From Chitinophagaceae bacterium (GTDB lineage: Bacteria > Bacteroidota > Bacteroidia > Chitinophagales > Chitinophagaceae): a DNA stretch of 46,524 nt. Shown in pieces: positions 708 to 14,265 of this stretch (positions are counted from its first letter, which is position 1; each line of letters begins with the position of its first letter). The notes under the pieces were generated by a model. It was not told the DNA's origin and did not search any database. It was given only the letters and a program-made list of their open reading frames with translations. The position numbers and the translations under genes are program-made. The stretch covers positions 1 to 46,524 of the forward strand of contig JAHEMM010000013.1 in the NCBI GenBank assembly GCA_024643655.1, in the 5' to 3' direction.

Positions 708-939
708 ATTCAATAGTTTCAAAAGATGAGGAATTATTTTTATTAGAAACTGAGTAGCAACTGCCTCCAACGGAACAAACCCCATCAGAAAGTAAAGAAA
801 TAACTGTAAATAAACTTCCAACTATTATTCCGACAAACTGATTGGATTCAATGGAGGAATACAAAATTAAGCTACCTAAGCCAACTCTTATAAATTTTAA
901 CGTTGTCCAACCAGTTTTAAGTCTATATATCAGGTTCAT
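685..939 (-). CDS. Small membrane protein, DUF2892/YgaP-like, 84 aa
   Basis: This is the first gene of the small operon running towards 1. It has a hydrophobic stretch at about 17-30 and another at about 35-50, followed by DGVCSVGGSC. Small two-helix proteins ending in a Cys-containing stretch resemble the DUF2892 inner-membrane part found fused or adjacent to rhodaneses such as YgaP. The match is by general layout only, so the family name is tentative. An operator-like palindrome (991-1004) and a -7-like GAATTTTG (961-968 on the minus strand) lie upstream. It may sit in the membrane with the DUF6132 partner encoded next. Confidence 0.55.
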   Translation of the reverse strand: MNLIYRLKTGWTTLKFIRVGLGSLILYSSIESNQFVGIIVGSLFTVISLLSDGVCSVGGSCYSVSNKNNSSSFETIEYEELDIK

Positions 940-990: not shown

Positions 991-1004
991 GTGACTAATG
1001 TTAC
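991..1004 (-). promoter_or_regulatory. Crp/Fnr-type operator (site A) upstream of the trx/DUF operon
   Basis: The sequence GTGACTAATGTTAC fits GTGA-N6-TCAC with one mismatch. Its near edge is 52 bases from the ATG at 939. A -7-like element GAATTTTG lies on the minus strand at 961-968, exactly the offset seen for the perfect copies elsewhere in the window, which would place the site near -41 relative to transcription start. Confidence 0.5.
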
Positions 1005-1010
1005 ATGAAA

Positions 1011-1035
1011 AAGCGGTTGCTTTTGGCAGCCGCTT
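1011..1035 (-). terminator. Terminator of the sqr transcript
   Basis: A stem of about 10 pairs with one G:U (arms 1011-1020 and 1026-1035, loop TTTTG) is followed on the minus strand by a run of T. It lies directly downstream of the sqr stop at 1055 and just before operator site A, so it separates sqr from the next unit. Confidence 0.7.
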
Positions 1036-1054
1036 AGGTAATCAATAGGCAAAA

Positions 1055-2251
1055 TTACATCTTACCAGGAAGTATCTTATTCCAGTATAGCCATGGTAGT
1101 ACTTTCGTTTTTAATTGATACATGGTCCATCTTTCTTTGCTCTGATCGAAAGGGAAGGTTTCTGTTGGTTGATTATTATAATCAAATTCACAAAGCACCA
1201 ACTTTCCATAACCTGTAACTACAGGACAACTTGTATAACCATTATAACTACCTGTTAATGCTTGTTCATCCATCAATTCCAATAGATTTTTTACTAATAC
1301 AGGTGCTTGTTTACGAATTGCAGCACCGGTTCGGGAAGTAGGTAATGAAGAAGCATCGCCTAATGAAAATATATTTTTGTATTTCAAATGCTGCAATGTG
1401 TTTTTATCGACATCTACCCATCCTGCATCATTAGCTAAAGGACTATTTTTTACAAAATCGGGTGCACTTTGCGGAGGAGTAACATGTATCATGTCAAACT
1501 CAACATCATATACCTTGTCTTTATTCTGTTCTCCGATTCCAATAAACTTTGCTTTTTTATTTGCTCCGTCAATCTCTACAAGTTTAGTAAAAAAGTTCAA
1601 CTGTACTTTATCTCTTTCAGCTACTTTCTTCAATGTTTTTTCATATTTATCTACTCCAAATAAACGGGTGCCACCACTCCAGTATTGAATTTCTGTTTTG
1701 TCAAATATATTTTGCTTTTTAAAATAATCTGCTGCCAGCCACATTATTTTGTGAGGTGCACCGCCACATTTTACAGGAGTATTCGGATTGGTGAATAATG
1801 CTTTTCCACCTTTTAGATTTCTGATACATTCCCAGGTATAGGGTGCCTGATCAAAACTATAATTAGAACATACACCATTTTTCCCCAACGTTTCTTTCAG
1901 CCCTTTAATCTCATTCCAGTTTAATTGAATTCCCGGTGCTACTATCAGGTATTCATAATTTACAATGTCATTATTATCTAAAGTGATCGTATTGTTATCT
2001 GGCTGAAAAGAAACAACTTTTTGCTTTATCCATTTTACTTTTTTTGGCATCACTGATGCTTCGCTGCGTACTGTTTTATTTATTTCAAAAACACCAGCAC
2101 CTACTAATGTCCAGGCCGGTTGATAATAATGTTTTTCAGATGGTTCAATAATAGCTATATCCAGATTTTTATTTTTTCTTAATAATTGTGATGCAGTAGA
2201 AATTCCTGCATTACCGCCGCCTACAATTACTATTTGATGTTCGTTTGCCAT
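1055..2251 (-). CDS. sqr: Sulfide:quinone oxidoreductase (type II-like)
   Basis: A 398-residue FAD enzyme that oxidises sulfide at the inner face of the membrane and passes electrons to quinone, leaving sulfur as a persulfide on an acceptor. The FAD-binding motif VGGGNAGISTA is at about 10-20. Cys162 in VKCGGAPHKIM and Cys342 in YTSCPVVTGYG correspond to the two redox cysteines of mitochondrial SQR (family knowledge), and a third Cys128 lies in NGVCSNY. The C-terminal LPWLYWNKILPG segment is the expected membrane-associating region. It is transcribed divergently from a thioredoxin, with its own operator at 2298-2311. It has its own terminator and appears monocistronic. Confidence 0.93.
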   Translation of the reverse strand: MANEHQIVIVGGGNAGISTASQLLRKNKNLDIAIIEPSEKHYYQPAWTLVGAGVFEINKTVRSEASVMPKKVKWIKQKVVSFQPDNNTITLDNNDIVNYEYLIVAPGIQLNWNEIKGLKETLGKNGVCSNYSFDQAPYTWECIRNLKGGKALFTNPNTPVKCGGAPHKIMWLAADYFKKQNIFDKTEIQYWSGGTRLFGVDKYEKTLKKVAERDKVQLNFFTKLVEIDGANKKAKFIGIGEQNKDKVYDVEFDMIHVTPPQSAPDFVKNSPLANDAGWVDVDKNTLQHLKYKNIFSLGDASSLPTSRTGAAIRKQAPVLVKNLLELMDEQALTGSYNGYTSCPVVTGYGKLVLCEFDYNNQPTETFPFDQSKERWTMYQLKTKVLPWLYWNKILPGKM

Positions 2252-2297
2252 ATTTTATAATTTGACACTAAAGTATTTTAACGTCATGATTTTATTG

Positions 2298-2311
2298 GTG
2301 ACTATTATCAC
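2298..2311 (-). promoter_or_regulatory. Crp/Fnr-type operator (site B1) for sqr
   Basis: GTGACTATTATCAC is a perfect GTGA-N6-TCAC palindrome, with its near edge 47 bases upstream of the sqr ATG. A minus-strand -7-like TACTTTAG is at 2268-2275, so the site would be centred near -41, a class II activator position. Confidence 0.72.
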
Positions 2312-2354
2312 TGGAGTCGGAAACATGAATATGATTGTAGTCATGTTATACGGG

Positions 2355-2370
2355 TGTGATTTTCATCACT
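2355..2370 (+). promoter_or_regulatory. Crp/Fnr-type operator (site B2) for thioredoxin
   Basis: TGTGATTTTCATCACT contains a perfect GTGA-N6-TCAC (2356-2369). Its near edge is 46 bases from the thioredoxin ATG at 2415. A -7-like TAATTTTA is at 2392-2399, the same offset from the palindrome centre as in the other units. Sites B1 and B2 together give a divergent promoter pair with mirrored spacing. Confidence 0.72.
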
Positions 2371-2414
2371 CAGTTTTCATTAATCAGGTGTTAATTTTAC
2401 CGCTAAATATTATT

Positions 2415-2795
2415 ATGGCGACGATTCAAATGACTACACAAGATTTTAAAGACAAAGTATTTAACTACGAAAAGGAAGCTGATTGGAAATACCAGGGGAC
2501 ACTACCTGCAATTATAGATTTTTATGCTGATTGGTGCGGACCTTGTAAAATGGTGGCTCCCATACTGGAAGAGCTATCAAAAGATTATGAAGGGAAAATA
2601 ATTGTTTATAAAGTGGATACTGATGCGGAGCAGGAGCTATCAGCCGTATTTGGAATTCAAAGTATACCTACATTGTTATTTATTGGTGCTGATGGTGAAC
2701 CAATGATGCAACCCGGTGCACTGCCAAAGCATGTTTTGAAACAAGTGATAGAAGAAAAAATGATCAGTAAAGTTAAAAATGAGGATGTTCTTTAA
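2415..2795 (+). CDS. Thioredoxin, 126 aa
   Basis: A cytoplasmic thioredoxin with the active site DWCGPCK (Cys41 and Cys44) and the cis-Pro loop SIPTLLFI. The frame is open back to 2262, but that part overlaps the two operators and promoter of the divergent region, so the ATG at 2415 (MATIQMTTQDF) is chosen; the Met six codons in is a possible alternative. The N-terminus before the core is slightly longer than in a minimal thioredoxin. It is divergent from sqr and has a dedicated operator, which suggests a specific role in reducing or accepting persulfide generated by sulfide oxidation rather than being the general housekeeping thioredoxin (inference). Confidence 0.9.
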   Translation: MATIQMTTQDFKDKVFNYEKEADWKYQGTLPAIIDFYADWCGPCKMVAPILEELSKDYEGKIIVYKVDTDAEQELSAVFGIQSIPTLLFIGADGEPMMQPGALPKHVLKQVIEEKMISKVKNEDVL

Positions 2796-2868
2796 TAGCA
2801 ATAATTTTTTTTGGAAAGCCGGTTACAGTTTTGGCATTTATTAACTTGTTTATAAATCAGTATGTGGT

Positions 2869-3462
2869 ATGAAAGAATTTTGGAATCAGCGATTTTCAAC
2901 AGAGGAATGGATTTATGGTAAGGAGCCCAATAAATATTTTAAACAATTCATAGATTCTCATAAGCCAGGTACCATATTATTGCCTGCAGAGGGACAAGGC
3001 AGAAATGCAGTATATGCTGCATCAAAAGGTTGGGAGGTAGATGCTTTTGATTTTAGTGAAGTAGCTCGGGAAAAGGCATTGGCTTATGCGAAGCAAAAAA
3101 ATGTAGCCATCAATTATGAATTGAAAAGTATTGAAGATTTTAAAGCCGATAAAAAATATAGTGCAGTAGCCTTGTTATATGTACACTTGCCTGGCAAGAT
3201 CAGGCAACAATTTCATCAGGAAGTTTATGACTCCATAAAACCGGGTGGTTACCTGGTATTTGAAGCCTTTTCTAAAGAGCAACTTGAATTTGAAAGTGGA
3301 GGCCCGAAAGATGAAGCACTCTTATATGATGCCCCTTCAATTTGCAGTGATTTCCCATTTATTCATTTACTTACTTGCGGTCAATCTATTGTAGAATTGG
3401 ATGAAGGCCCTTATCATAAAGGGAAGGCTGCTTTATTAAGAATGACTGGTCAACGTTTATAA
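2869..3462 (+). CDS. Class I SAM-dependent methyltransferase, TehB/TPMT-like, 197 aa
   Basis: The start FWNQRFSTEEWIYGKEPN and the SAM-binding motif I LLPAEGQGRNAVYAA, then VDAFDFSEVAREKA and PGGYLVFEAF, mark a small Rossmann-fold methyltransferase of the TehB or thiopurine methyltransferase-like type. Members of this broad group methylate small molecules including chalcogen compounds and thiols; the substrate here cannot be read from sequence. It follows the thioredoxin by 73 bases on the same strand and lies between sqr and the DsrE genes, so a role in sulfide or thiol methylation is possible, but this is inference from position. It converges on the DsrE-like gene with only 9 bases between stops. 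Confidence 0.75.
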   Translation: MKEFWNQRFSTEEWIYGKEPNKYFKQFIDSHKPGTILLPAEGQGRNAVYAASKGWEVDAFDFSEVAREKALAYAKQKNVAINYELKSIEDFKADKKYSAVALLYVHLPGKIRQQFHQEVYDSIKPGGYLVFEAFSKEQLEFESGGPKDEALLYDAPSICSDFPFIHLLTCGQSIVELDEGPYHKGKAALLRMTGQRL

Positions 3463-3471
3463 TTTATATGT

Positions 3472-3888
3472 TTAATTTACCACTTTAATATAACCATAAC
3501 CCTCTTGCTGTTTACTAATAAGTTCATATAGTGCGTCAGGAACAGTTTTTACTCCATTTAATAATTGTTCTTTATTGACATTGTGAGCTTTCATAGCTTG
3601 CTCACATACAGCAAATGTTACATTCTTCTGAGTTGCTAATTTTTTGATGTCGGTTGATCTGGTAGATGTTTCAGATTCAACCATCGTTAAAGACTTACCG
3701 TAAAACACTACTTCTACTTTTGCATCAGGATGTGAAGATAAAATTCCGTTAATCCACCGAATGACCCGATTATGTGTAGTTGTATCCCCGGTAGTAATAT
3801 CAAAAACAATATTATAAGGATTTGTTTGAGAAAATAGCTGGTTATCAATGGATAACAATAGCAAGACAAGTATTATTATGTTTTTCAT
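3472..3888 (-). CDS. Exported DsrE-family protein, 138 aa
   Basis: The N-terminus MKNIIILVLLLLSIDNQLFSQ is a Sec signal peptide. The mature part has the DsrE fold pattern: a first strand NIVFDITTG, EVVFYGKSL, then VTFAVCEQAM with Cys95, and a C-terminal GVKTVPDALYELI. DsrE-type proteins carry sulfane sulfur or act in sulfur relay on a conserved Cys. Cytoplasmic DsrE members work with sulfurtransferases, but this one should be periplasmic. It is transcribed divergently from a Tat-exported paralogue at 3989. I found no GTGA-N6-TCAC operator in the 100 bases between them. Confidence 0.78.
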   Translation of the reverse strand: MKNIIILVLLLLSIDNQLFSQTNPYNIVFDITTGDTTTHNRVIRWINGILSSHPDAKVEVVFYGKSLTMVESETSTRSTDIKKLATQKNVTFAVCEQAMKAHNVNKEQLLNGVKTVPDALYELISKQQEGYGYIKVVN

Positions 3889-3988
3889 TTTAAGAAATTT
3901 TAATTATTTAAAAATAAGATAAATATTAGAAAGACATTTTGTGTAACTTAAATGAATTAATCAGATTAATTAACCAAAATTTTTTATT

Positions 3989-4690
3989 ATGAATTTATCA
4001 GATAAATCGGGTTCTTTCAATCGAAGAAAATTTCTTGGTAAACTTTCCGGAGGTGCAGCAGCTGTTGGATTGTCTACAATGGCTCCAACAATAAGTGCAT
4101 TAGCTACTGATAAGGAAAAGTTCTTAACCTCTTCAGACCCCGAGGATATGTTTAAAAAAATTACTGGTGAACATCGGGTAGTTTTTGATGTTCCAAAACC
4201 AAATCATATTTATCCATTTGCCTGGCCCAGAGTTTTTCTTCTAACAAATATGGCTACTGGTTCAAAAGAAAAAGATTGTAGTGTTGTAGTTGTACTTCGT
4301 CATGATGCTATCGCTTATGCGATGGAAGACAGGTTATGGGAAAAATATAAATTTGGAGAGTTTTTTAAAGCAATTGATCCGGCTACCGAAAAAGCATCAA
4401 TTCGAAATCCTTTCTGGAAACCAAAAAGCGGGGCATTTAATATACCTGGATTTGGAGTTGTTCCAATTGGGATTAATGAATTACAGGAAAGCGGGGTAAT
4501 GTTTTGTGTTTGTGAAGCTGCTTTAACTGTTAACAGTGCTAAAATGGCCGGAGCCACAAAATCTGATGCAGCTGAATATAGAAAGGATTGGGTATCTGGT
4601 TTATTGCCCGGTATTCAAACTGTTCCATCTGGTTTATGGGCTTTGGGAAGAGCACAAAAAAAGGAATGTGCCTACATTTATGCAGGCTAA
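3989..4690 (+). CDS. Tat-exported DsrE-like protein, 233 aa
   Basis: The N-terminus has FNRRKFLGKLSGGAAAVGLS with the twin arginines at 12-13, so the folded protein should be exported by Tat. The C-terminal half matches the divergent DsrE protein: ESGVMFCVCEAALT (Cys173, Cys175) and GIQTVPSGLWALGRA align with FAVCEQAM and GVKTVPDALYELI. A third Cys227 is near the end. Compared with the 138-residue paralogue it has about 60 extra residues, including GEFFKAIDPATEKAS and a Pro/Gly-rich region. Tat export suggests that it folds or receives a cofactor or partner before export. A periplasmic sulfur-carrier role is inferred from the Cys motif and neighbours. Confidence 0.72.
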   Translation: MNLSDKSGSFNRRKFLGKLSGGAAAVGLSTMAPTISALATDKEKFLTSSDPEDMFKKITGEHRVVFDVPKPNHIYPFAWPRVFLLTNMATGSKEKDCSVVVVLRHDAIAYAMEDRLWEKYKFGEFFKAIDPATEKASIRNPFWKPKSGAFNIPGFGVVPIGINELQESGVMFCVCEAALTVNSAKMAGATKSDAAEYRKDWVSGLLPGIQTVPSGLWALGRAQKKECAYIYAG

Positions 4691-4718
4691 TTTTTAAATG
4701 ATGTAGTTAAAAAAATAG

Positions 4719-4750
4719 AAAGTCGGTGATTAATTTCACCGACTTTTTTT
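4719..4750. terminator. Bidirectional terminator
   Basis: An 11-base perfect inverted repeat (4719-4729 and 4736-4746) with a TTAATT loop is followed by T on the plus strand, and preceded by an A-rich stretch that gives T on the minus strand. It lies between the convergent Tat-DsrE gene and the YeeE/YedE pair. Confidence 0.85.
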
Positions 4751-4767
4751 ATTTGCAAAAAATATTT

Positions 4768-5262
4768 TTAGTGTGGTAACTTCTCTCTGAACTTTCCATA
4801 TACCCAGGTGCCTGCAATTGCACTTAATAATGTGATGATAATAACAGTTGCACCAGTCCCAATTTGTGCAAATAATGGACCTGGACAAGCACCGGTTATG
4901 GCCCAGCCTAATCCAAAAATTAATCCGCCATAGATCTGTCCTTTATTAAATTTTTTTGGTTCGATTTTTATCGTTTCCCCTTCTAAAGATTTCGCTTTTA
5001 ATTTTTTAATTAGAAAAACGCTGATGATGCCGACAACAACTGCAGAACCAATCACTCCATACATATGGAAGCTTTTCAGTTTAAACATTTCCTGTATCCG
5101 GAACCATGAGATGACTTCAGACTTTACCAGGAAGATACCAAATATGATTCCTGCAAAAATGTACTTAATGTTTGAAACAAGTGGTTTGTCTAATTCAGAT
5201 TGATTCACACACATGGCATTCTCTGACCGAACTTCAAAATCTGTATTTGTAGGTATTGACAT
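4768..5262 (-). CDS. YeeE/YedE family transporter subunit (PmpB-like), 164 aa
   Basis: Membrane segments are visible at about 32-50, 68-88, 108-125 and 140-158. The signature GWAITGACPGPLFAQIG with Cys126 is the conserved second-half motif of YeeE/YedE proteins, which transport thiosulfate or related sulfur compounds by relaying them between conserved cysteines. The full-length fold is split here into two genes; this is the second half, starting 1 base after the stop of the partner. The first 30 residues are hydrophilic, with Cys18. The pair shares one promoter with operator site D. Confidence 0.85.
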   Translation of the reverse strand: MSIPTNTDFEVRSENAMCVNQSELDKPLVSNIKYIFAGIIFGIFLVKSEVISWFRIQEMFKLKSFHMYGVIGSAVVVGIISVFLIKKLKAKSLEGETIKIEPKKFNKGQIYGGLIFGLGWAITGACPGPLFAQIGTGATVIIITLLSAIAGTWVYGKFREKLPH

Positions 5263-5263
5263 A

Positions 5264-5827
5264 TTATAATTTTAAAATAAAGGGTAAAATAATATTTGCC
5301 ATAATAAATCCGCCAGCCATAAAACAACAAGTAGCAACTAATGATGGCCATTGTAGATTACTAAGTCCCATGATTGCATGGCCGCTGGTACAACCTCCTG
5401 CATAGCGGGTGCCAAAGCCCACAAGAAAGCCACCACCTATCATCATAACTATTCCTTTCAATGTCAGCAAGGCCGGCCAGTTAAATAGATCAGATGGTAC
5501 TAAAGATGTAGTATCGTTGATTCCTATAGAAGAAAGTTCGGCTGCAAGGCCAGCATGAATTTTTATTGGTTCCGGATTTGCCAATAACTGGGCTGCAATA
5601 AACCCACCTGTTAAAACACCAGCAACAAAAAATAAATTCCAGATCTCTTTTTTCCAGTTGTATTGAAAGAAAGGAATTTTAGTTGGTAAACAAGCAGCAC
5701 AAACATGACGTAAGGAAGAAGAGATACCAAATGATTTGTTTCCCAATAATAATAATATAGGTACTGTAAGTCCAATCAAAGGTCCCGCCACATACCAGGG
5801 CCAGGGTTGTTTAAGCCATTCAAGCAT
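5264..5827 (-). CDS. YeeE/YedE family transporter subunit (PmpA-like), 187 aa
   Basis: The first half of the split YeeE/YedE transporter. The membrane protein has about five hydrophobic segments, an N-terminal loop HVCAACLP (Cys43, Cys46), and the family signature [13 protein letters not shown] with Cys146. These cysteines are thought to pass thiosulfate or sulfide-level sulfur through the membrane (family knowledge from YeeE). It is the first gene of a two-gene unit and has a perfect operator palindrome with a -7-like element upstream. It lies directly downstream of tsdA but has its own promoter, consistent with separate control of uptake and extracellular oxidation. Confidence 0.85.
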
Positions 5828-5877
5828 AAGTTATTTTTTTAGTTGTGCAAATTTCTAATTATAATATTTGAATTACC

Positions 5878-5891
5878 GTGATAATTGTCAC
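5878..5891 (-). promoter_or_regulatory. Crp/Fnr-type operator (site D) for the YeeE/YedE pair
   Basis: GTGATAATTGTCAC is a perfect GTGA-N6-TCAC. Its near edge is 51 bases upstream of the ATG at 5827. A minus-strand GAAATTTG at 5848-5855 sits at the same offset as the -7-like elements of the other units, placing the palindrome near -41. Confidence 0.72.
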
Positions 5892-5902
5892 ATGGGTTTA
5901 TG

Positions 5903-6937
5903 TTACTTTTCTTTTTTAAGTGTTTCTATTTTTGCAATAATAGATTTAAATGGTCCAAATTTATGCTGTGTTTCTGAAAATCCATCAGCATATGGACCAA
6001 AGGGATGATCAAATGGTTTTTGGGAAATATCTGGCCAGTCTTTACTTATATCTTTCTTAGGGCGGGGTTGACTATTTACAAACGCAGCAACATCCCAGGC
6101 TTCTTCTGTTGTCAATTTAGGATTACTATGCGTTGCCTGATTAAAAGGCATATTAGTTTTTACATAACCAGCAAAACTACTGATACGAAAAAGACCAGCA
6201 CCGATATTGTAACTATGATCTCCCCACAAAGGAGGGTATTCATAACTTGTTCCAGAAAGCGTTAACTGTCCTTCTCCATTAGTGCCATGGCAACTTAGAC
6301 ATTGAGCTGTATAAACTTGTTTCCCTTTTTCCGGACTAGCTGCTCTGTCGAGAAAAGTAAGTTTATCAATTCCACTTCCTTTTGGTTTCTCTCCTTTCTT
6401 TACATCTTGTCCAATCCATTTAATATACTCGTAGATAGCTTTATATTCTTTACTATTACTATCGGGTGCAGAACCATTCAGGCTTCTTTCAAAACAATCA
6501 CTTACTCTTTTATAAATACCTTCAATTTCTCCGCTTCTTTGCCTGAGTTTTGGATAAGTTGAGTAAACTGCACTGTAATTATTACCCCAGTTCTTTTTAC
6601 CAGCATTCAAGTGGCAGTTCTGACAATTCATGCCATTGGAAATAGGTGCAATTGAACCTGCCGGACCAAAATACCTGGCTGTATTTGCAATAATATCTTC
6701 CCCATAAATTACCATATCCCTTTGTGGACCTGTTAATTCATTATCAGTAAATAAACTAGGAGGAACCCATGTACTATCATTTAGTTGTGTTGATAATGTA
6801 CTGCTGTTATCAATATTACTGGATTTTAATAATTCAAAAAAGAGTACAATAAATATTACAATCACAATAATAACTAATTGCCAATTAGTCCTTAAAGTAT
6901 ACCCAATTGATTTCTTATTCAGCTTATCTGAATTCAT
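5903..6937 (-). CDS. tsdA: TsdA-type diheme cytochrome c (thiosulfate dehydrogenase)
   Basis: A 344-residue protein with an N-terminal membrane anchor (about 19-36) and two c-type heme sites, CQNCH (105-109) and CLSCH (213-217). Between them RVSDCFERSLNG supplies Cys148, the position of the unusual Cys axial ligand known from TsdA and SoxA-type hemes. Met263 in TNMPFN is a likely ligand of the second heme. The C-terminal ETQHKFGPF is also TsdA-like. The enzyme interconverts thiosulfate and tetrathionate in the periplasm. The ATG at 6937 is chosen because it directly precedes the anchor; it overlaps the soxB end by 14 bases, so the two are translationally coupled. It has a membrane anchor where many TsdAs are soluble. 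Confidence 0.87.
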   Translation of the reverse strand: MNSDKLNKKSIGYTLRTNWQLVIIVIVIFIVLFFELLKSSNIDNSSTLSTQLNDSTWVPPSLFTDNELTGPQRDMVIYGEDIIANTARYFGPAGSIAPISNGMNCQNCHLNAGKKNWGNNYSAVYSTYPKLRQRSGEIEGIYKRVSDCFERSLNGSAPDSNSKEYKAIYEYIKWIGQDVKKGEKPKGSGIDKLTFLDRAASPEKGKQVYTAQCLSCHGTNGEGQLTLSGTSYEYPPLWGDHSYNIGAGLFRISSFAGYVKTNMPFNQATHSNPKLTTEEAWDVAAFVNSQPRPKKDISKDWPDISQKPFDHPFGPYADGFSETQHKFGPFKSIIAKIETLKKEK

Positions 6938-8630
6938 ATGTTGTTCCTTGTAATTGTGTAAGTAAAGTATGTGGCTGATCTGTTGCAGTTGCTCGCATTT
7001 CAAGTTTTGGCGAAACTGGAGAATGCAAAGACAGGTATTCTTCTATAACATCATGCATCTGGATACCCAGCATTTTTGGATTTTTTACCTTTTCAATTCT
7101 ACAAAGTGTATCGATCGGGTCACCTTCTCTTTCACATGCAACGATACTGTATTCTTTAGTAAGGTCAATCGGTTCATTATTTATTTTTACCCAATTTACT
7201 CTTTTCCCTAATTCATTTCCGATAGTAAAGTTGACCTGCATTCCTGCAAATCTTACGAACCAGCCACCAAATCTTTTAGAAGGATCTTTTGCAAAAGCAT
7301 TTTGTAATTCCTTTTCAAGCCAATCCATGATTTGTTGACCGGTTACAATACCAGTTCTGGCTTCGCTGTCGACGGGTAACATATTCCATAAAAACTCTTT
7401 GGTAATTTCTGCCTTACCTTTTTTAGGATCTACATTTAGGGGCTGACAAAACCGAAATCCATTACTTAAGGCAATGTCTGGTTTAAACTTCCAATGAATA
7501 GCATCAGTAATCAGATTATCCATCGGTGTTTCCATAACAAAATATCGTACCAATGGGGTAGTAGTAGTTCCAATTACTTTAGACAATTGTGCATTATACG
7601 GTTCTTGTGCTTTCTGGATTTTATTTAATAATTTTTTATCGGCCGGGAATTTTACAGGATCAACATCTAAAAGATGATAAGTATAATTTTTTATTTTTCC
7701 ATTCTCAACTTCAATATCAAGTTTACCCAGAAAAGATCCGAAGGCACCACATTCTACTACTTTACAATAATTGCCCATGATGGGTTCTCTTACTCTTTCA
7801 TGAGTATCTGCCCCCAGAATAAAATCTGCTCCTTCTACCGCAGGGTTATTGGCTAATCCGATTTGTTGTGCCAAACCCATATGCGTTACAATAAAAATGA
7901 TACCACAACCTTCTACTTCTTTTAGCAGTTTGATATATTTTGCTGCATTATGATCTGCATGTTTAAAACCAATCCCTTCGCTATAAGCTGGTGATTGACG
8001 TTTTGGAATTAAATGATCTGTGTAACCAATAAAACCAACTTTTGTCCCGGCTATATATTTTACCCAATACGGGGGATATATTAATTCACCATTATCCGCA
8101 TCATTAGTTTTATGCCACATGTTGGCACAAATTTTTGCAGCGTTCGCATGCCCCATATCATACAGCATTTTCTTTTTCTTATACACTACTTCCCAATTCC
8201 CTGGCAATATAAGGTCATAATTAAAATCATTTAATAAGGGTATTAATGCTTCCCCTTCAGTAAGCGATGCTACGCCACTTCCATGAAAGTAATCGCCACC
8301 GTCAATTAAGATAGTATTATGAGGGTTTTGGTTTCTGTAATAATTGATCATGGTTTTTAAAACAGCCAGTCCACCTCTTTTTTTATAAACAGGATTTCCG
8401 TTTTCCCAGAAAAACTCATCATGTGTATGTAATTGAGCATGTATATCTGAGGTATAAAGAATGGTGAATCTTTCCGGTTTATCGATACTCTTAGCTAGAT
8501 TGGAATTTGGATTTGGTATTGCAGCAGCTACACCTGCCAGCGAAGTTCCAAGACCTGCCAATGTAGTTTTTTTTAAAAAATCCCGACGGGAATTGGTGTT
8601 TTCATCGTTTTGTAAATAAGACATGGGCAA
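6924..8630 (-). CDS. soxB: SoxB-like thiosulfohydrolase (5'-nucleotidase family), Tat-exported
   Basis: A 568-residue metallo-hydrolase with a Tat signal (NSRRDFLKK, then an Ala/Gly-rich stretch to about 40). Metal-site motifs are SDIH (62-64), IDGGD (110-113), GNWE (144-147), THMG (250) and ADTHE (275-277). The W in GNWE is a SoxB feature, where generic 5'-nucleotidases have GNHE. SoxB removes sulfate from a thiosulfate-derived group on the SoxY carrier in the periplasm, yet no soxXA, soxYZ or soxCD genes are in the window. The first His of the usual GHTH motif is Asp275 here. ATGs lie at 8630 and 8624, and the start is not certain. It overlaps tsdA. Operator site E is upstream. Confidence 0.82.
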   Translation of the reverse strand: MPMSYLQNDENTNSRRDFLKKTTLAGLGTSLAGVAAAIPNPNSNLAKSIDKPERFTILYTSDIHAQLHTHDEFFWENGNPVYKKRGGLAVLKTMINYYRNQNPHNTILIDGGDYFHGSGVASLTEGEALIPLLNDFNYDLILPGNWEVVYKKKKMLYDMGHANAAKICANMWHKTNDADNGELIYPPYWVKYIAGTKVGFIGYTDHLIPKRQSPAYSEGIGFKHADHNAAKYIKLLKEVEGCGIIFIVTHMGLAQQIGLANNPAVEGADFILGADTHERVREPIMGNYCKVVECGAFGSFLGKLDIEVENGKIKNYTYHLLDVDPVKFPADKKLLNKIQKAQEPYNAQLSKVIGTTTTPLVRYFVMETPMDNLITDAIHWKFKPDIALSNGFRFCQPLNVDPKKGKAEITKEFLWNMLPVDSEARTGIVTGQQIMDWLEKELQNAFAKDPSKRFGGWFVRFAGMQVNFTIGNELGKRVNWVKINNEPIDLTKEYSIVACEREGDPIDTLCRIEKVKNPKMLGIQMHDVIEEYLSLHSPVSPKLEMRATATDQPHTLLTQLQGTTYEFR

Positions 8631-8686
8631 TCATTTATAAAGTGAAATTAAAAAGTCTAATTTGACCATTTTTTAAAAATTGTTTC

Positions 8687-8700
8687 GTGACAGATATCAC
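8687..8700 (-). promoter_or_regulatory. Crp/Fnr-type operator (site E) for soxB-tsdA
   Basis: GTGACAGATATCAC is a perfect GTGA-N6-TCAC. Its near edge is 57 bases upstream of the ATG at 8630. Unlike the other units, no convincing -7-like element is found at the common offset (8657-8664 reads CAAATTAG on the minus strand), so promoter geometry differs or the site acts from another position. Confidence 0.62.
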
Positions 8701-8722
8701 ATAAAGTAATAAAATATATTAT

Positions 8723-10141
8723 TTAAAACTGATAGTTGATAACTAAATTCCATAGACTCATGTCTACTTTATTTATGATGTATTTATCATTATTAAAAGA
8801 GTTGCCGGTTTTGTTTTTATACCCGAACAAAAGTTGTGTTTCAAGACCTTTGAATAGGCCTGCAAATTTGTAACGGATATCTATATTCAATTGGTTGTAT
8901 GAAGGTAGTCCGTATTTGTTAAGTCTAAAATTGCTTACTTCAGGTAAATTATAATTTCCAAAGGCAACAGAAGTTGTTACACGTATTGAAGGTATTTTAT
9001 AATTTACTTTTGCCATAAAAGCATGAACATCACCAAATCCTTCATTTCTTTCTCTGGGTAGAAATGTAAAAAATGGATCTCTTCCCCATTCTCTTGGCAT
9101 CAGATATTTTCCTTTTGCTGTTATCCGTGTATAATTTAAACTTGTTTCCCATTTATTATTTTTCCATCCTGTGCGGCCACCAAAACTTAATGAGTGCTCA
9201 CCTTTTTTAAAGTATGCTTTTGCATCGTCAAGATTACCACCGGAATTTACTGCATCTTGTCTGATTATTTGTGCAGCTATAAAAAATTTAGATTTATCTT
9301 TTATTGGGAACTCATAGTCGGCCTGCAACATGGTGCTATTAAAAATATTTTCAGTGAATTGATTCCAGAATTGAATTTTTAGTTTTGAGTCTGCTTGATA
9401 ACTAAAGCCAGTCAGGAAAATTCCTTTACTTTTAAGATTTCCGGCATAATCGGCTTTTGTACCGTAGTCATTTACACCAACTGGATAAATCCCAATTGAA
9501 TTATGCACCCTGTACCATTTCACTGTACTACGTGGTGAAATCCCATATAAGTAACCTAATTCAACTTTTAATTTTTTAAACTTATTTATTTCTGCCCAAA
9601 TTCCCTCAACTTCAGTCGGTCGCATACGTCCATCCTGAAGATTTATAAAAGGAGTATTTATTAGTTGCTTTCCAACTGTTATTGTTGCATTTTTAAAATT
9701 GTATTTAAGATATAGTTCTTCCAGTCTGTCAATATGTTTTTTATTGGTTGGATCTTCGATGTCGAAGAGACCAATCTCATATCGATTTATCTGATTTGTT
9801 GTGGGATCAGGTAAAGACAAGTTAGATGACCCAATATTAAAAGTAAAGAAACCGCTGACCCCGAATTGGAATTTTTTGAATTCAGCTGTTTCAAATTTAA
9901 TCCCCCCGCCAATTGCATTTGCATAATAGTCAGTAAGTCCTTTGTCATTTTCTGTTGCCATAAAATAATAGCGAAAATGTCCGCTTACATGACCTTTTCG
10001 AAAAGCTGCAAGGATAGAGGTAGAATCAACATCATTTTCTTTCTCTTTCCATAATCCTGGCTTTTCATTTAATTCCTGATGTTGGGCAAAAAGAATAGTT
10101 GCGATACTGAGTAAAAAAAGTAGTAAAATGTTTTTTTTCAT
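8723..10141 (-). CDS. Outer-membrane beta-barrel porin, OprD-like, 472 aa
   Basis: The signal peptide MKKNILLLFLLSIATILFAQ is followed by a long sequence of alternating hydrophobic and polar strands, with motifs such as GHVSGHFRYYFM, ATITVGKQLINTPF and LKVELGYLYGI, and the chain ends in NLVINYQF with the terminal Phe expected of an outer-membrane barrel. GKQLINTPFINLQDGRM resembles the OprD porin family, which takes up small solutes. It is 4 bases downstream of a secreted rhodanese and clearly co-transcribed with the three rhodaneses. Uptake or release of small sulfur anions such as thiosulfate or tetrathionate is a plausible role inferred only from position. Confidence 0.78.
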   Translation of the reverse strand: MKKNILLLFLLSIATILFAQHQELNEKPGLWKEKENDVDSTSILAAFRKGHVSGHFRYYFMATENDKGLTDYYANAIGGGIKFETAEFKKFQFGVSGFFTFNIGSSNLSLPDPTTNQINRYEIGLFDIEDPTNKKHIDRLEELYLKYNFKNATITVGKQLINTPFINLQDGRMRPTEVEGIWAEINKFKKLKVELGYLYGISPRSTVKWYRVHNSIGIYPVGVNDYGTKADYAGNLKSKGIFLTGFSYQADSKLKIQFWNQFTENIFNSTMLQADYEFPIKDKSKFFIAAQIIRQDAVNSGGNLDDAKAYFKKGEHSLSFGGRTGWKNNKWETSLNYTRITAKGKYLMPREWGRDPFFTFLPRERNEGFGDVHAFMAKVNYKIPSIRVTTSVAFGNYNLPEVSNFRLNKYGLPSYNQLNIDIRYKFAGLFKGLETQLLFGYKNKTGNSFNNDKYIINKVDMSLWNLVINYQF

Positions 10142-10145
10142 GCGG

Positions 10146-10568
10146 TTACTTAACTTCCTTTTTTCCCTTCCATTGACTATATCCGCCCTTTAGATCTTTA
10201 AGTTTTTTGAATCCCATTTCTTTCATAATGAATTTTGCCTTGCTGCTACGTTTACCGCTTTTGCAATACAGAAGATAGCTTTTATTTTTATCTAAATCTG
10301 TAATTTGATTTTTGAAATTTTCCAGTTTTAATACATCTACATGAATAGCACCAGGTATATGACCAGCATTATACTCTGCATCTGTGCGAACATCCAACAT
10401 TACTGTATTTTTCTTTTTTAATAATCGTTGAAATTTGATTTGATTCACAGTTTTACCTGCAATGCTATCTGTTGTTTGTGCGGATAAAGAAGTTGAAATT
10501 CCGATTAAAAATGCAATAGAAATAAAAGTCCAATGCTTTGCATTGAAATATTGTTTTACTTGAATCAT
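10146..10568 (-). CDS. Secreted rhodanese-domain protein, 140 aa
   Basis: An N-terminal hydrophobic signal (about 12-31, ending SLSAQ) precedes one rhodanese domain: VMLDVRTDAEYNAGHIPGA and the active loop YCKSGKRSS with Cys102. The loop length matches single-domain sulfurtransferases that move sulfane sulfur to thiols, sulfite or cyanide. The signal indicates a periplasmic location, unlike the two rhodaneses encoded before it. Its ATG overlaps the stop of the preceding rhodanese by 4 bases, and the OprD-like porin follows after 4 bases, so the four genes form one unit. Confidence 0.86.
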   Translation of the reverse strand: MIQVKQYFNAKHWTFISIAFLIGISTSLSAQTTDSIAGKTVNQIKFQRLLKKKNTVMLDVRTDAEYNAGHIPGAIHVDVLKLENFKNQITDLDKNKSYLLYCKSGKRSSKAKFIMKEMGFKKLKDLKGGYSQWKGKKEVK

Positions 10569-10876
10569 GCTATTTTATTTTTTAAACTTGTCCATGGGCC
10601 ACCGTTATATGTATCAATTCCGGCCGATTTTAAAATTCCCTTTGCCATTCCACTTCTCGTACCACTGCGACATACAGTAATTACGGGCCTATTCAGTTTT
10701 TTTAAATCGGCAACTTTAGAGCGGATATTATCTAATGGATAATTTTTTGAACCAGGAATATGACCAGCCTTATATTCTGATGTAGAACGTACGTCAACAA
10801 TGACAGCACCGTTATTTACCAATTCTTTAAAGTTGACAGATGTTATGCCAAATAATTTTTTTATATAAGTTAACAT
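10565..10876 (-). CDS. Rhodanese-domain protein, 103 aa
   Basis: A single cytoplasmic rhodanese domain: VIVDVRSTSEYKAGHIPGS, active loop TVCRSGTRSGMA with Cys69, and a C-terminal DTYNGGPWTSLKN. No signal peptide or membrane segment is clear, although the first ten residues are somewhat hydrophobic. It lies between a second cytoplasmic rhodanese (6-base gap upstream) and a secreted one (4-base overlap downstream). It is a paralogue of the 93-residue neighbour, sharing the CRSGxRSGMA loop, and probably transfers persulfide sulfur generated by sqr. Confidence 0.87.
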   Translation of the reverse strand: MLTYIKKLFGITSVNFKELVNNGAVIVDVRSTSEYKAGHIPGSKNYPLDNIRSKVADLKKLNRPVITVCRSGTRSGMAKGILKSAGIDTYNGGPWTSLKNKIA

Positions 10877-10882
10877 AGCGGT

Positions 10883-11164
10883 TTAATTTAAAACTGATTG
10901 CATATCGCTTAATCCGCCGCCATTATATACTTCGGATAAGCCATTTTGTTTTAGAATGCTTACGGCCATTCCACTTCTATTTCCACTCCGGCAATATAGT
11001 ACTACGGGGGTATTGTAAGTTTTGAATTCTTCAACTTTGGCAGCTACTTCTTCAAGTGGAATATTTTTTGCTCCGGGAACATGTTCCATTTCAAATTCCC
11101 AAGAACTTCTCACATCTACAATTGTTGTGGATGGATTTTTTATTAATTCTTTAATCGTATTCAT
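10883..11164 (-). CDS. Rhodanese-domain protein, 93 aa
   Basis: A minimal cytoplasmic rhodanese: TIVDVRSSWEFEMEHVPGA, active loop LYCRSGNRSGMA with Cys58, and the ending SEVYNGGGLSDM. The domain occupies the whole protein. It is the first gene after the hairpin at 11190-11209, which separates it from the persulfide dioxygenase gene upstream. I see no operator palindrome in the 98 bases before it, so it may depend on readthrough from the upstream gene or on an unidentified promoter. Confidence 0.87.
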   Translation of the reverse strand: MNTIKELIKNPSTTIVDVRSSWEFEMEHVPGAKNIPLEEVAAKVEEFKTYNTPVVLYCRSGNRSGMAVSILKQNGLSEVYNGGGLSDMQSVLN

Positions 11165-11182
11165 TTTATAATTTTTGTTGTG

Positions 11183-11209
11183 AAAAAAAGCCGGGGTATA
11201 AACCCCGGC
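11183..11209 (-). terminator. Hairpin terminator or attenuator after the persulfide dioxygenase gene
   Basis: A perfect 7-pair GC stem GCCGGGG/CCCCGGC (11190-11196 and 11203-11209) with a TATAAA loop is followed on the minus strand by seven T (11183-11189). It ends the dioxygenase transcript, or partly attenuates it before the rhodanese genes. Confidence 0.82.
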
Positions 11210-11262
11210 CGGATTTTAACCATTAAACCTTAACCTAAAAAAGATAATAACTAATCAACTAT

Positions 11263-12681
11263 TTATAATAATGTAGAGGGGCATACATAATCGCTAACTT
11301 TAAATTTGCCGCTTTCTTTAATTTCTTTAAACCCCCCTTTAACATCAATCAATTTGTCAAAACCTCTTGCTCTAAGAATAGAGTTGAAGATCATTGAACG
11401 ATATCCGCCTGCACAGTGTACATAGTACGTCTTGTTCTTATCAATTTGCGCCATGCTGTCGTTGATAAAATCAAGCGGAGTATTTTCTGCATCAATGATA
11501 TGTTCACTGAGGTATTCACTGTTTTTTCTGACATCCAGTACATTCACTTCTTCTTTTTTCATTATACCAGCAAGTTCATCAGCATTGATTGATATTATAT
11601 GATCAATTTCTTTATCAGCTTTTTGCCATGCAGTAAAACCGTCTTTTAAATAACCAATTGTGTAATCATAGCCAACTCTTGCTAATCTTGTGATTACTTC
11701 TTCTTCACGACCTTCCTCAGTAACTAATAAGATCTCTTGTTTAATATCCGGAATCATAGCGCCAACCCATGGGGCAAAACTTCCGTCAATACCAATATTG
11801 ATAGAATTTGGAACAAATCCTTTTGCAAATGTTTGTGGGTCTCTTGTGTCAAGGATTAATGCACCTGTTTCGTTGGCAGCAGTTTCAAAAGCATCAGGGC
11901 TTAAGGCATGTTGCCCTCTTTCCAATACTTTATCAATACTTTCATATCCCTGAATATTCAACATTACATTCAATGGGAAATAAGCTGGAGGAGCAACTAA
12001 TCCGGTCGTTACTTCTTTTATAAATTCTTCTTTGGTCATATTGGCCCGCAGGGCATAATTCGTTTCCTTCTGGTGACCTAAAGTATCAGTAGTTTCTTTA
12101 CTCATATTCTTGCCACAAGCACTACCAGCACCATGAGCTGGATAAACTGTAATATCATCAGCCAAGGGCATGATTTTATTACGTAGCGAATCAAAAAGAT
12201 ACCCCGCTAATTTATCCTGAGTAAGATCAGCTACAACTTTTTGTGCCAGATCAGGACGACCAACATCTCCAATAAATAAAGTGTCGCCAGAGAATAAACC
12301 TATGTCTTTACCTTTTTCATCTTTTAAAAGATAACAAGTGCTTTCCATAGTATGTCCTGGTGTGTGTAATACTTTAATAGTCAGATTACCTACTTTTAAT
12401 TCTTCACCATCTTTGGCAATATGTGCCTCAAATGATGGATTGGCCGTTGGTCCGTAAACAATAGGAGCTCCGGTTTTTTTACTAAGATCTAAATGGCCTG
12501 AAACAAAATCTGCATGAAAGTGAGTTTCAAGCACATATTTTATTTTGGCACCATTACGTTTTGCTTTTTCAATATAAGGATCCACTTCACGAAGAGGATC
12601 AATAACAATCGCTTCGCCATTACTTTCGATGTAATATGCACCTTGTGCTAAACATCCTGTATAAATTTGTTCTACTATCAT
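11263..12681 (-). CDS. Persulfide dioxygenase-rhodanese fusion (CstB-like), 472 aa
   Basis: The N-terminal metallo-beta-lactamase fold (1-250) has THFHAD (His54, His56, Asp58), TPGH (His110), SGD (Asp133) and PAHG (His183), matching ETHE1-type persulfide dioxygenases that oxidise glutathione or other low-molecular-weight persulfide to sulfite. A first rhodanese-like domain (about 265-355) has LLVTEEGREEE where the active Cys should be, so it is a pseudo-domain. The second (365-460) has VHCAGGYRS with Cys423. The order dioxygenase, dead rhodanese, live rhodanese is that of CstB in Staphylococcus, which makes thiosulfate from persulfide. The likely thiol carrier is bacillithiol, since bshA is present. 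Operator site F is upstream. Confidence 0.92.
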   Translation of the reverse strand: MIVEQIYTGCLAQGAYYIESNGEAIVIDPLREVDPYIEKAKRNGAKIKYVLETHFHADFVSGHLDLSKKTGAPIVYGPTANPSFEAHIAKDGEELKVGNLTIKVLHTPGHTMESTCYLLKDEKGKDIGLFSGDTLFIGDVGRPDLAQKVVADLTQDKLAGYLFDSLRNKIMPLADDITVYPAHGAGSACGKNMSKETTDTLGHQKETNYALRANMTKEEFIKEVTTGLVAPPAYFPLNVMLNIQGYESIDKVLERGQHALSPDAFETAANETGALILDTRDPQTFAKGFVPNSINIGIDGSFAPWVGAMIPDIKQEILLVTEEGREEEVITRLARVGYDYTIGYLKDGFTAWQKADKEIDHIISINADELAGIMKKEEVNVLDVRKNSEYLSEHIIDAENTPLDFINDSMAQIDKNKTYYVHCAGGYRSMIFNSILRARGFDKLIDVKGGFKEIKESGKFKVSDYVCPSTLL

Positions 12682-12743
12682 TTTTTAAAAATTTAAAGTT
12701 TTAATATTTATGTCAAATCTCGATTAATCTGTTTTAATAAATA

Positions 12744-12757
12744 GTGACTTACATCAC
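12744..12757 (-). promoter_or_regulatory. Crp/Fnr-type operator (site F) for the persulfide dioxygenase gene
   Basis: GTGACTTACATCAC is a perfect GTGA-N6-TCAC. The ATG lies 63 bases further at 12681. A minus-strand GAGATTTG at 12714-12721 is at the same offset as the other -7-like elements, placing the palindrome near -41 with a leader of about 28 bases. Confidence 0.72.
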
Positions 12758-12759
12758 AC

Positions 12760-13575
12760 TCAATGACCACCACCTCCTGGGAAAAATAACTCCTTAATAA
12801 TGATATAAATACCCATTACGAGAACGAACCAACCAAATCCTTTTTTTAATTTATTACCATCGATTTTTTTGCTAGCGGCATCGCCAATAAAAATTCCAAC
12901 TATAGCTAGTCCTGTTATTGTTAATAATAGTTTCCAGTCCATTGTATAATTTGATAAATCACCTGTAAATCCTATTAAGGACTTTGCAGCAATGATTAAC
13001 AAAGATGTTCCTACTGCTTGTTTCATTGGCAACTTGCTGAATATGACCAGTGCCGGAATAATTAAAAAACCTCCGCCTGCACCAACAAGACCTGTCAAAA
13101 GACCAACAACCGCACCTTCCAGTAAAATCATCGGATAATTGAATTTTTGTTTTTCAACTAAATCCTCCTGTTCAATTTTCTTTTTATCTCTAATCATGGA
13201 TATAGATGCAAACACCATAAGGATCGCAAATAAGACCATCATCAGGATACTTTTTGTAACGACAAAATCTCCTATGCTGAAGACTTCCTTTGGGATTGCA
13301 GGAACAATGATCTTCCTGGTAATAAACACCGCTGCAATAGCGGGTACACCAAATATTAAAGCTGTTTTTAAGTTGACTAATCCTTGTTTATATTTTGGAA
13401 TTGTACCTACCAGACTCGAAGCTCCCACAATGAATAAAGAATAAGCCGTAGCAAGTACTGGATTTACGCCAAATAAATAAACTAGCACGGGGACAGTAAG
13501 AATTGAGCCCCCGCCTCCGATTAGGCCAAGAGAGATTCCTATAACAAGTGAAGCAAAGTAGCCTATGATTTCCAT
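12760..13575 (-). CDS. TauE/SafE family sulfite/organosulfonate exporter, 271 aa
   Basis: An integral membrane protein of the TSUP family with about eight helices. The two family repeats are visible: GISLGLIGGGGSILTVPVL near the start and GLLTGLVGAGGGFLIIPAL at about 155-175. These proteins export sulfite, sulfoacetate or related anions. In this position it would remove the toxic sulfite made by the neighbouring persulfide dioxygenase. The chain ends FFPGGGGH. It forms its own unit with the best palindrome of the set upstream, and its stop is followed by the promoter of the dioxygenase gene. Confidence 0.9.
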   Translation of the reverse strand: MEIIGYFASLVIGISLGLIGGGGSILTVPVLVYLFGVNPVLATAYSLFIVGASSLVGTIPKYKQGLVNLKTALIFGVPAIAAVFITRKIIVPAIPKEVFSIGDFVVTKSILMMVLFAILMVFASISMIRDKKKIEQEDLVEKQKFNYPMILLEGAVVGLLTGLVGAGGGFLIIPALVIFSKLPMKQAVGTSLLIIAAKSLIGFTGDLSNYTMDWKLLLTITGLAIVGIFIGDAASKKIDGNKLKKGFGWFVLVMGIYIIIKELFFPGGGGH

Positions 13576-13618
13576 TTTAATTATTTATGCAAGAATAAGC
13601 CAAAGGTCAAACTCACAA

Positions 13619-13634
13619 TGTGACAGAAATCACA
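13619..13634 (-). promoter_or_regulatory. Crp/Fnr-type operator (site G) for the TauE exporter
   Basis: TGTGACAGAAATCACA is a full TGTGA-N6-TCACA palindrome, identical to the CRP consensus half-sites. Its GTGA core edge is 45 bases upstream of the ATG at 13575. A minus-strand TATTCTTG at 13590-13597 is the -7-like element at the common offset. Confidence 0.78.
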
Positions 13635-13647
13635 GGATTGCAAATCA

Positions 13648-14265
13648 CTAAATCACCTCGATCATATTACGATGTAGTTTTACAAGATTTCGCTGTTCCA
13701 TTTTTTTTAATAATCTTGAAATAACTTCTCTGGAACTATTTAAATCATCAGCAATTTGCTGGTGAGAAGATTCGATAGTGTTTTTTCCGGAGGTATTTAT
13801 ACAACGTTTTAAATAGAATTCGAGACGCTCATCCATATTATGAAATGCGATATTGTCAATTACAGTGATTAATTCATCAAATCGGCCGCGGTACGTTTGA
13901 ATTACAAATTGATACCAACTTTTATATTGATTCATAAGTTCATCCATCAGCTGAACTGGAATGAGTAATACTTCAGTTTCTTCTTCAGCTATTGCGGTGA
14001 TTTCACTTGTTTCGGATTGAATGGCACAGATCATTGAAACAGCACAAGCCTGACCGGGACCGAGGTAGTACATCAGAAATTCGCCACCATCTTGGTTTTC
14101 TCTATAAATTTTAATCTGCCCTTCTAAAACCAAGGCCGTTGATTTTATATACTGTCCAGTTCGCATGATGACTTCACCAGTTTCAAATCTTTTTTGAACA
14201 GCGTTTTTTTCTATAATTTCAATTAGTTCTGATTCGAATTGAGGGAATAGTTTTTTCCAATCCAT
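13648..14265 (-). CDS. Crp/Fnr family transcriptional regulator, 205 aa
   Basis: An N-terminal cyclic-nucleotide-binding-like beta-barrel (about 10-115), a dimerisation helix (about 118-150) and a C-terminal winged HTH. The recognition helix NSSREVISRLLKKMEQ carries Arg179, Glu180 and Arg184, the R-E-x-x-x-R pattern with which CRP reads TGTGA; Ser183-Arg184 also resembles Fnr. The sensor domain has no Fnr-like N-terminal Cys cluster, but GPGQACAVSMICAIQSE places Cys74 and Cys80 in the effector region. The operators GTGA-N6-TCAC nearby fit its predicted specificity, making it the likely regulator of the sulfur genes. It starts 9 bases after murF and has no operator of its own. Confidence 0.88.
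   Translation of the reverse strand: MDWKKLFPQFESELIEIIEKNAVQKRFETGEVIMRTGQYIKSTALVLEGQIKIYRENQDGGEFLMYYLGPGQACAVSMICAIQSETSEITAIAEEETEVLLIPVQLMDELMNQYKSWYQFVIQTYRGRFDELITVIDNIAFHNMDERLEFYLKRCINTSGKNTIESSHQQIADDLNSSREVISRLLKKMEQRNLVKLHRNMIEVI

Follow-up and report, generated by a model that had tools for sequence, protein, structure and literature searches.

What controls the genes for reduced-sulfur oxidation that lie together on contig JAHEMM010000013.1 of Chitinophagaceae bacterium (assembly GCA_024643655.1), and how is this control written into their promoters? The stretch analyzed, called the window throughout, comprises positions 1 to 46,524 of the forward strand. It encodes a sulfide:quinone oxidoreductase-like flavoprotein (SQR, gene sqr), a persulfide-dioxygenase-like protein fused to rhodanese domains (PDO), SoxB- and TsdA-like proteins, a YeeE/YedE pair, a TauE/SafE-family exporter (gene tauE) and thioredoxins (trx), together with a CRP/FNR-family regulator of 205 amino acids (13648..14265, minus strand). 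A first-pass annotation of the same DNA, made from the sequence alone, had proposed that a shared GTGA-N6-TCAC operator marks these genes as one regulon and that the adjacent Crp/Fnr protein reads it. Here we describe seven operator sites and their rigid spacing to the -7 box, and show that such sites recur upstream of the same genes in related genomes and that their letters covary with the recognition helix of the regulator. The seven sites are very probably the operators of a reduced-sulfur regulon, and the protein encoded at 13648..14265 is the one most likely to bind them and to act as a class II activator.

Operator sites in the window and the assembly

A motif scan of the 46,524-nt window found seven perfect copies of GTGA-N6-TCAC, compared with 0.36 on average and at most 3 in shuffled windows; less than one copy is thus expected by chance, as the first-pass annotation had held. 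Six of the perfect copies (2298, 2356, 5878, 8687, 12744 and 13620) and a single-mismatch copy at 991 had been named there, and all were found. Operator 1 (991..1004, minus strand) reads GTAACATTAGTCAC on that strand, with one mismatch, has the -7 box GAATTTTG at 961-968 and stands upstream of the open reading frame (ORF) 685-939 and the DUF6132 and thioredoxin genes. Operator 2 (2298..2311, minus strand; box TACTTTAG at 2268-2275) precedes sqr, and operator 3 (2356..2369, plus strand; box TAATTTTA at 2392-2399) precedes the second thioredoxin gene, whose start was taken at 2412. The remaining four are on the minus strand: operator 4 (5878..5891; box GAAATTTG at 5848-5855) upstream of the YeeE/YedE pair, operator 5 (8687..8700; box CAAATTAG at 8657-8664) upstream of soxB-tsdA, operator 6 (12744..12757; box GAGATTTG at 12714-12721) upstream of the PDO-rhodanese fusion, and operator 7 (13620..13633; box TATTCTTG at 13590-13597) upstream of tauE. 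The distance from site end to start codon measures 42-62 bases, in close agreement with the 45-63 bases given earlier; for the site at 991 it is 51 bases, as calculated from the coordinates.

The seventh perfect copy, at 4726, is absent from the earlier list, and rightly so, because it forms the stem of a terminator hairpin and lacks a -7 box at the operator spacing; as an eighth operator it was rejected on the same grounds. The hairpin (4717..4748; folding z = -6.1) sits between convergent genes and is a bidirectional terminator that serves both strands. For operator scans it acts as a decoy.

The whole assembly (3.17 Mb, 177 contigs, 97.6% complete) was covered by pattern searches. It contains 19 perfect copies of the bare motif, of which 12 lie outside the window and are not confined to sulfur genes. 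The concern that the motif might be just as frequent before unrelated genes is nevertheless not borne out, the density being 0.150 per kb in the window versus 0.0038 per kb outside (approximately 39-fold), and seven of the eight site-plus-box composites described below falling in the window. When the inner letters are specified (GTGAY-N4-RTCAC, the strict site), seven copies remain in the assembly, six of them in the window, and all six perfect operators fit. The only strict site elsewhere, C128:34189 (L026 8190), lies upstream of an operon read from its translations as YceI-like/cytochrome; it was set aside as an operator, being more than one mismatch away from the composite. About 2 kb from this site, a gene encodes a Crp-type domain joined to a response regulator.

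Promoter geometry

In all seven cases, 991 with its one mismatch included, the named site is separated by exactly 23 bases from the A of a Bacteroidota -7 box. A composite pattern was defined as the operator, 23 bases and A-NN-TTTG. With at most one mismatch allowed, it occurs eight times in the 3.17-Mb assembly, and seven of these matches are the named sites, with 991 included and 4726 excluded; the reversed control gave five matches in the same assembly. No forward ORF of at least 60 amino acids lies close downstream of the eighth composite, C43:2249.

The spacing was then determined in an alignment of 79 sites from 48 genomes (window included), of which 78 precede tauE, PDO, sqr, yeeE, trx or rhodanese genes and one precedes soxB. 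At offset 23, at least four of the five box letters are present in 69 of the 79 sites and all five in 46, versus 8/79 for the next best offset. The distance from site to start codon ranges from 34 to 76 across the same alignment.

At the class II promoters of Escherichia coli CRP, the operator has GTGA/TCAC half-sites with a 6-base spacer, is read by an R-E-x-x-x-R helix and is centered at -41.5, the activating position. In a transcription-start study of Flavobacterium psychrophilum, TAnnTTTG was located at -12 to -5 (PMC9723704). If the box occupies -12 to -5 here as well, a position borrowed from that species, the operator center falls at -41.5. It is mainly because the rigid -7 register puts the operator at the class II position that the protein is called an activator, and the promoters are probably class II CRP-dependent ones. 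A -33 element was sought in the aligned sites and is not visible; this absence is uninformative because 119 control promoters show none either.

In the mechanism that we propose, a dimer of the regulator would bind the 14-bp palindrome GTGAY-N4-RTCAC, whose center would lie 41.5 bp before the transcription start. From there it would act as a class II activator of sigma-A RNA polymerase; the only core element visible in these promoters is a TAnnTTTG-like -7 box. The genes switched on in this way, those for SQR, PDO-rhodanese, SoxB/TsdA, YeeE/YedE, TauE and the thioredoxins, would together take sulfide to sulfite and move sulfur into and out of the cell.

Recurrence of the operator in relatives

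One hundred loci from the same family were collected, 20 for a homologue of the regulator and 80 for one of PDO, and were assigned by hand, among the matches listed, to group A (regulator at least 73% identical), group B (47-64%) or group C (no such orthologue). Strict sites were located 30-80 bp before the starts of window-homologous genes in 73 of 102 cases (group A 19/27, group B 51/71, group C 3/4), and the genes that the motif precedes are tauE, PDO, sqr, yeeE, trx and rhodanese genes. The scan of related Chitinophagaceae that the first-pass annotation had suggested thus finds the motif again before sulfur genes. Eleven permuted half-sites together yielded a single near-start site in the same 100 loci, and when spacers of 2-12 were compared in groups A and B, spacer 6 yielded 70 near-start sites, spacer 11 one and the others none. 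The claim of a shared operator for reduced-sulfur genes is supported by this recurrence and by the requirement for a spacer of 6. A set of GTDB loci, reduced from 46 to 38 by removal of eight duplicates before counting, contained 65 sites, of which 48, spread over 20 loci, were near starts; 14 of the 38 had no site, including a Myxococcota outgroup and two loci with the R-V helix described below.

In 195 whole genomes the exact composite was found 152 times versus nine times for the reversed control, the latter counted by eye. It is present in 56 of the 72 genomes that bear an orthologue of the regulator versus 23 of the 123 others, orthologues being those among the matches listed. When 32 of the 152 composites, in 30 loci, were examined by reading the translations downstream, 21 were seen to precede a sulfur-related gene: tauE, PDO, SQR, YeeE, thioredoxin or rhodanese in 16 cases, OsmC-like or DUF2892-like in five. 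Many genomes carry the site before tauE instead of PDO. Counts of GTGAY-N4-RTCAC alone in the 195 genomes are dominated by background, many genomes not exceeding the reversed control, and were not used as evidence.

Composites at L225, L231 and L249 precede OsmC-like genes, those at L232 and L238 DUF2892-like genes, those at L251 and L252 TolC-like genes, those at L229 and L230 kelch-like genes and the one at L234 a copper-ATPase-like gene; all of these are possible further targets, judged from sequence. G155, a genome of the same genus rated 100% complete, has no regulator match at E 0.001, and its single PDO match scores no differently from the 55% paralogue; the sulfur module therefore appears to be accessory.

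The regulator and its recognition helix

The product of 13648..14265 matches PF00027 (6e-15) and PF13545 (2.7e-8), and the fold matches agree in placing it in the CRP/FNR superfamily. It is not CRP proper (PRK11753, 42.9 bits versus a cut-off of 266), scores 27.6 bits with the Fnr model (cut-off 228) and does not conserve the four cluster cysteines of the latter. Pfam reports only the cyclic nucleotide-binding (cNMP-binding) and Crp-type helix-turn-helix domains, with no ArsR or CsoR fold. The closest solved relative by sequence (8.7e-30), which also ranks first by fold, is PDB 3dv8, the Crp/Fnr protein EUBREC_1222 of Eubacterium rectale; at 25% identity, both cysteines of the regulator, C74 and C80, are aligned with it. 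The recognition helix, SSREVISR, contains R179, E180 and R184 and so has the R-E-x-x-x-R pattern that the first-pass annotation had read in it.

Many homologues of 33-47% identity, encoded beside similar genes, carry an R-V helix, and several of their promoters have GTAAC-N4-GTTAC at the operator position. In Flavobacteriaceae, R-V homologues of 46-47% identity have this motif at the same -7 spacing (L201 10605, 11595; L203 10591, 14039). In loci fetched by homology alone, the 86 R-E loci contain 105 GTGAY and one GTAAY sites, the 21 R-V loci contain no GTGAY and 10 GTAAY sites (the 10 from five loci), and the 49 loci in which no regulator homologue was found contain 24 and four, respectively. 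For composites within 3.5 kb of the regulator the GTGAY:GTAAC ratio is 90:1 with R-E (two helix rows summed) and 1:15 with R-V; identical proteins were dropped from this table, which is not an unselected sample, 20 added stretches having been chosen mostly by motif with the helix then unseen. An apparent exception in group C, G185, encodes a regulator of 36% identity whose helix is R-E. The GTAAC composite on its own gives a weak signal in the family genomes (63 versus about 41 for the reversed control, both by eye); across the class it is present in 119 of 395 genomes, a count with no control comparison that was not used as evidence. The idea that the adjacent Crp/Fnr protein reads the sites is strengthened by this covariation of operator letters with the helix and by the higher frequency of the composite in orthologue-bearing genomes.

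Of the 128 homologues in the alignment, 126 keep C74, whereas two distant ones (18 and 25% identity) do not. R-E proteins have a mean of 2.2 cysteines each, and C74 alone is near-universal. It is part of the segment GQACAVSMICA; in the CRP/FNR family this segment forms the effector pocket. In the predicted model (mean pLDDT 88, falling to 71-75 over residues 71-90) it is positioned just before a short helix, 75-83. The conserved cysteine in the pocket segment goes beyond the first-pass annotation, as do the rigid -7 spacing, the inner Y/R letters and the terminator at 4726.

Points against, the signal and alternative explanations

Several observations weigh against the mechanism proposed here. 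The exact composite is missing from 16 of the 72 orthologue-bearing genomes (among the matches listed), 11 of the 32 examined composites precede other genes or none that was found, and, of the 86 R-E loci, 30 lack a strict site upstream of any window-homologous gene. GTGAY sites (24 in total) also occur near starts in 15 of the 49 loci in which no regulator homologue was found, the regulator being elsewhere in some of these genomes. L192, L193 and L194, from Flavobacterium/Flavobacteriaceae, encode an R-E regulator of 61-63% identity adjoining tauE, and no strict GTGAY site is present in their examined flanks. The upstream test restricted to PDO was modest (27/68 versus 3/26, Fisher p 0.012), and p-values overstate independence because the genomes are related. 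The count of helix versus operator is not an independent test, because some of the loci that it includes are those in which GTAAC was initially noticed. Among the composites within 3.5 kb of the regulator there are exceptions (L306, R-E with GTAAC; L222, R-V with GTGAY; L301, R-A with a GTGAY composite). Only 35% of the 79 sites have T as the first letter of the box, so that the boxes are weak, as those of activator-dependent promoters may be, and the -12 to -5 position of the box derives from another family. Finally, a two-cysteine switch cannot be general here, because C80 is missing in 20 of 126 homologues.

Because the regulon handles sulfide and persulfide, we infer that C74 in the effector pocket reads reactive sulfur, i.e., sulfide-derived persulfide or polysulfide, an assignment with roughly an even chance of being right. 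A different signal, namely oxygen, NO or the general thiol redox state, with the sulfur genes as a downstream consequence, is the less likely choice, although such sensors are found in the CRP/FNR family and a family member, HcpR, uses similar operators, TGTGA in Desulfovibrio and GTAAC in a second branch (PMC1274295). The targets found are mostly sulfur-handling genes, and among the 20 homologues that lack C80, 18 have no cysteine other than C74, which would leave too few protein ligands for an FNR-type cluster. Sensing of reactive sulfur by C74 would make the regulator a hitherto unrecognized sensor class, which we propose only tentatively, at somewhat less than an even chance: a CRP/FNR activator whose pocket C74 is persulfidated or polysulfidated in place of cAMP binding, which controls sulfide oxidation in Chitinophagaceae and perhaps in the wider Bacteroidota, and whose GTGAY and GTAAC dialects are set by one helix residue.

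The regulator might instead act as a repressor, which would block the promoter until sulfide or persulfide caused its release, in the manner of SqrR, BigR and CstR, which are described as repressors (PMC9774590, PMC7315123); the operator extends over the -35 region, and a repressor could act there too. A repressor needs no fixed -7 register, whereas 69 of 79 sites keep theirs to the base and at the activating position of CRP, and repression is therefore improbable.

It is very improbable that the sites are read by another Crp/Fnr protein and that the regulator gene is adjacent by chance. The genome does encode at least two other PF13545 proteins, one of them about 2 kb from C128:34189, the one strict site that is not in the window, and may encode a Crp/Fnr protein that PF13545 does not detect. 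Among the three PF13545 proteins found, however, R-E-x-x-x-R occurs only in the product of 13648..14265, the other two recognition helices being RQTVTT and TESLIR, and it is with the helix of the former that operator letters covary across genomes and with its orthologues (among the matches listed) that the composite is more common. Chance or composition, i.e., a motif common in AT-rich intergenic DNA, as the 12 perfect copies outside the window and the background level of GTGAY-N4-RTCAC in many of the 195 genomes might suggest, is refuted for the seven sites jointly by the fixed -7 register and by their making up seven of the eight genome-wide composites; in addition, hardly any near-start sites are obtained with permuted half-sites or other spacers.

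Comparison with known systems

Activation by the regulator encoded at 13648..14265, as preferred here, has its nearest parallel in E. coli CRP, with which it shares the half-sites, the spacer, the pattern of the recognition helix and the operator center at -41.5. It differs in having cysteines in the pocket segment, in the selected inner Y/R letters, in the Bacteroidota -7 box and in a regulon for reduced-sulfur oxidation.

HcpR, a CRP/FNR regulator of the nitrosative stress response, recognizes TGTGA-N6-TCACA or GTAAC-N4-GTTAC, and its residues 180 and 181 are reported to correlate with the operator letters (PMC1274295). Fold and operator types are alike, and the structure of Porphyromonas gingivalis HcpR (9day) is fold match 7 of the regulator. 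The GTAAC dialect goes with Val here and with Pro in place of Glu in HcpR2 (PMC1274295), and the targets here are sulfur genes, not hcp. The latter gene is absent among the window genes scanned and was not noticed downstream of the examined composites, no genome-wide search for it having been made.

In other phyla, clusters of sqr, pdo, tauE and yeeE are regulated by FisR, BigR/SqrR, CstR, YrkD and NreBC (PMC7315123, PMC9774590, PMC9918477). As far as these sources were available, the enzymes and transporters controlled are of the same kinds and several of the regulators sense reactive sulfur by cysteines, SqrR by a two-cysteine switch (PMC9774590), but they are a sigma-54 activator, ArsR/CsoR-type repressors and a two-component system, and none is a CRP/FNR activator. 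In Acinetobacter baumannii, Crp is a CRP-family protein with a persulfidated cysteine, which is described as opposite the ligand pocket and was suggested to be possibly regulatory (PMC7315123); this protein is 50% identical to E. coli Crp and the sulfide genes there are under FisR and BigR. RedB is reported to repress sulfate assimilation indirectly (PMC9603854). Genes for the oxidation of sulfide and persulfide are present in many Bacteroidota, with 114 type III PDO genomes in one sediment survey (PMC12345210). The reactive-sulfur regulators described in these partial sources are ArsR, CsoR, MarR, sigma-54 or two-component proteins, and no CRP/FNR regulator of sulfide oxidation in Bacteroidota appears in the titles and abstract beginnings of the literature matches listed. 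As far as those matches show, CRP promoters and reactive-sulfur regulators are each known and their combination is new.

The family thereby gains a candidate dedicated activator for such genes, and the site-plus-box pattern predicts targets from sequence. A single residue pair, E or V in the helix with G or A in the operator, is directly testable. Should C74 be the sensor, a CRP pocket can turn from nucleotide to sulfur sensing.

Genes behind the operators

The downstream genes are as the first-pass annotation had listed them, except that the first ORF behind operator 1 has no family match and that the SoxB and SQR matches fall below the curated NCBIfam cut-offs. The genes behind the operators are on the minus strand unless stated otherwise. 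Operator 1 is followed by ORF 685-939 (84 amino acids, without a Pfam or NCBIfam match), the DUF6132 protein and a thioredoxin (together 173..939). The SQR-like flavoprotein is encoded at 1055..2251 (type III SQR model, 244 bits; cut-off 525 not reached), and the second thioredoxin, identified by domain scan, at 2412..2795 on the plus strand. The YeeE/YedE sulfur-transport pair (4768..5827) comprises 5264-5827 and 4768-5262. Behind operator 5 are the SoxB-like thiosulfohydrolase (6924..8630; TIGR04486, 241 bits; cut-off 550 not reached) and the TsdA/SoxA-like dihaem cytochrome c (5903..7003; domain scan). PDO, an MBL-fold persulfide-dioxygenase-like protein fused to rhodanese domains and named from its domain make-up, is located at 11263..12681, the three rhodanese-domain genes (10883-11164, 10565-10876 and 10146-10568) at 10146..11164, and the TauE/SafE-family exporter (PF01925) at 12760..13575.

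Two observations concern other parts of the window. The region 3989-4690 encodes a Tat-signal protein beside a DsrE gene; it has no Pfam match and may be a periplasmic DsrE-like protein. Genes of type IX secretion, porV and a PorP/SprF homologue, are located at 17805-19037 and 36202-37227.

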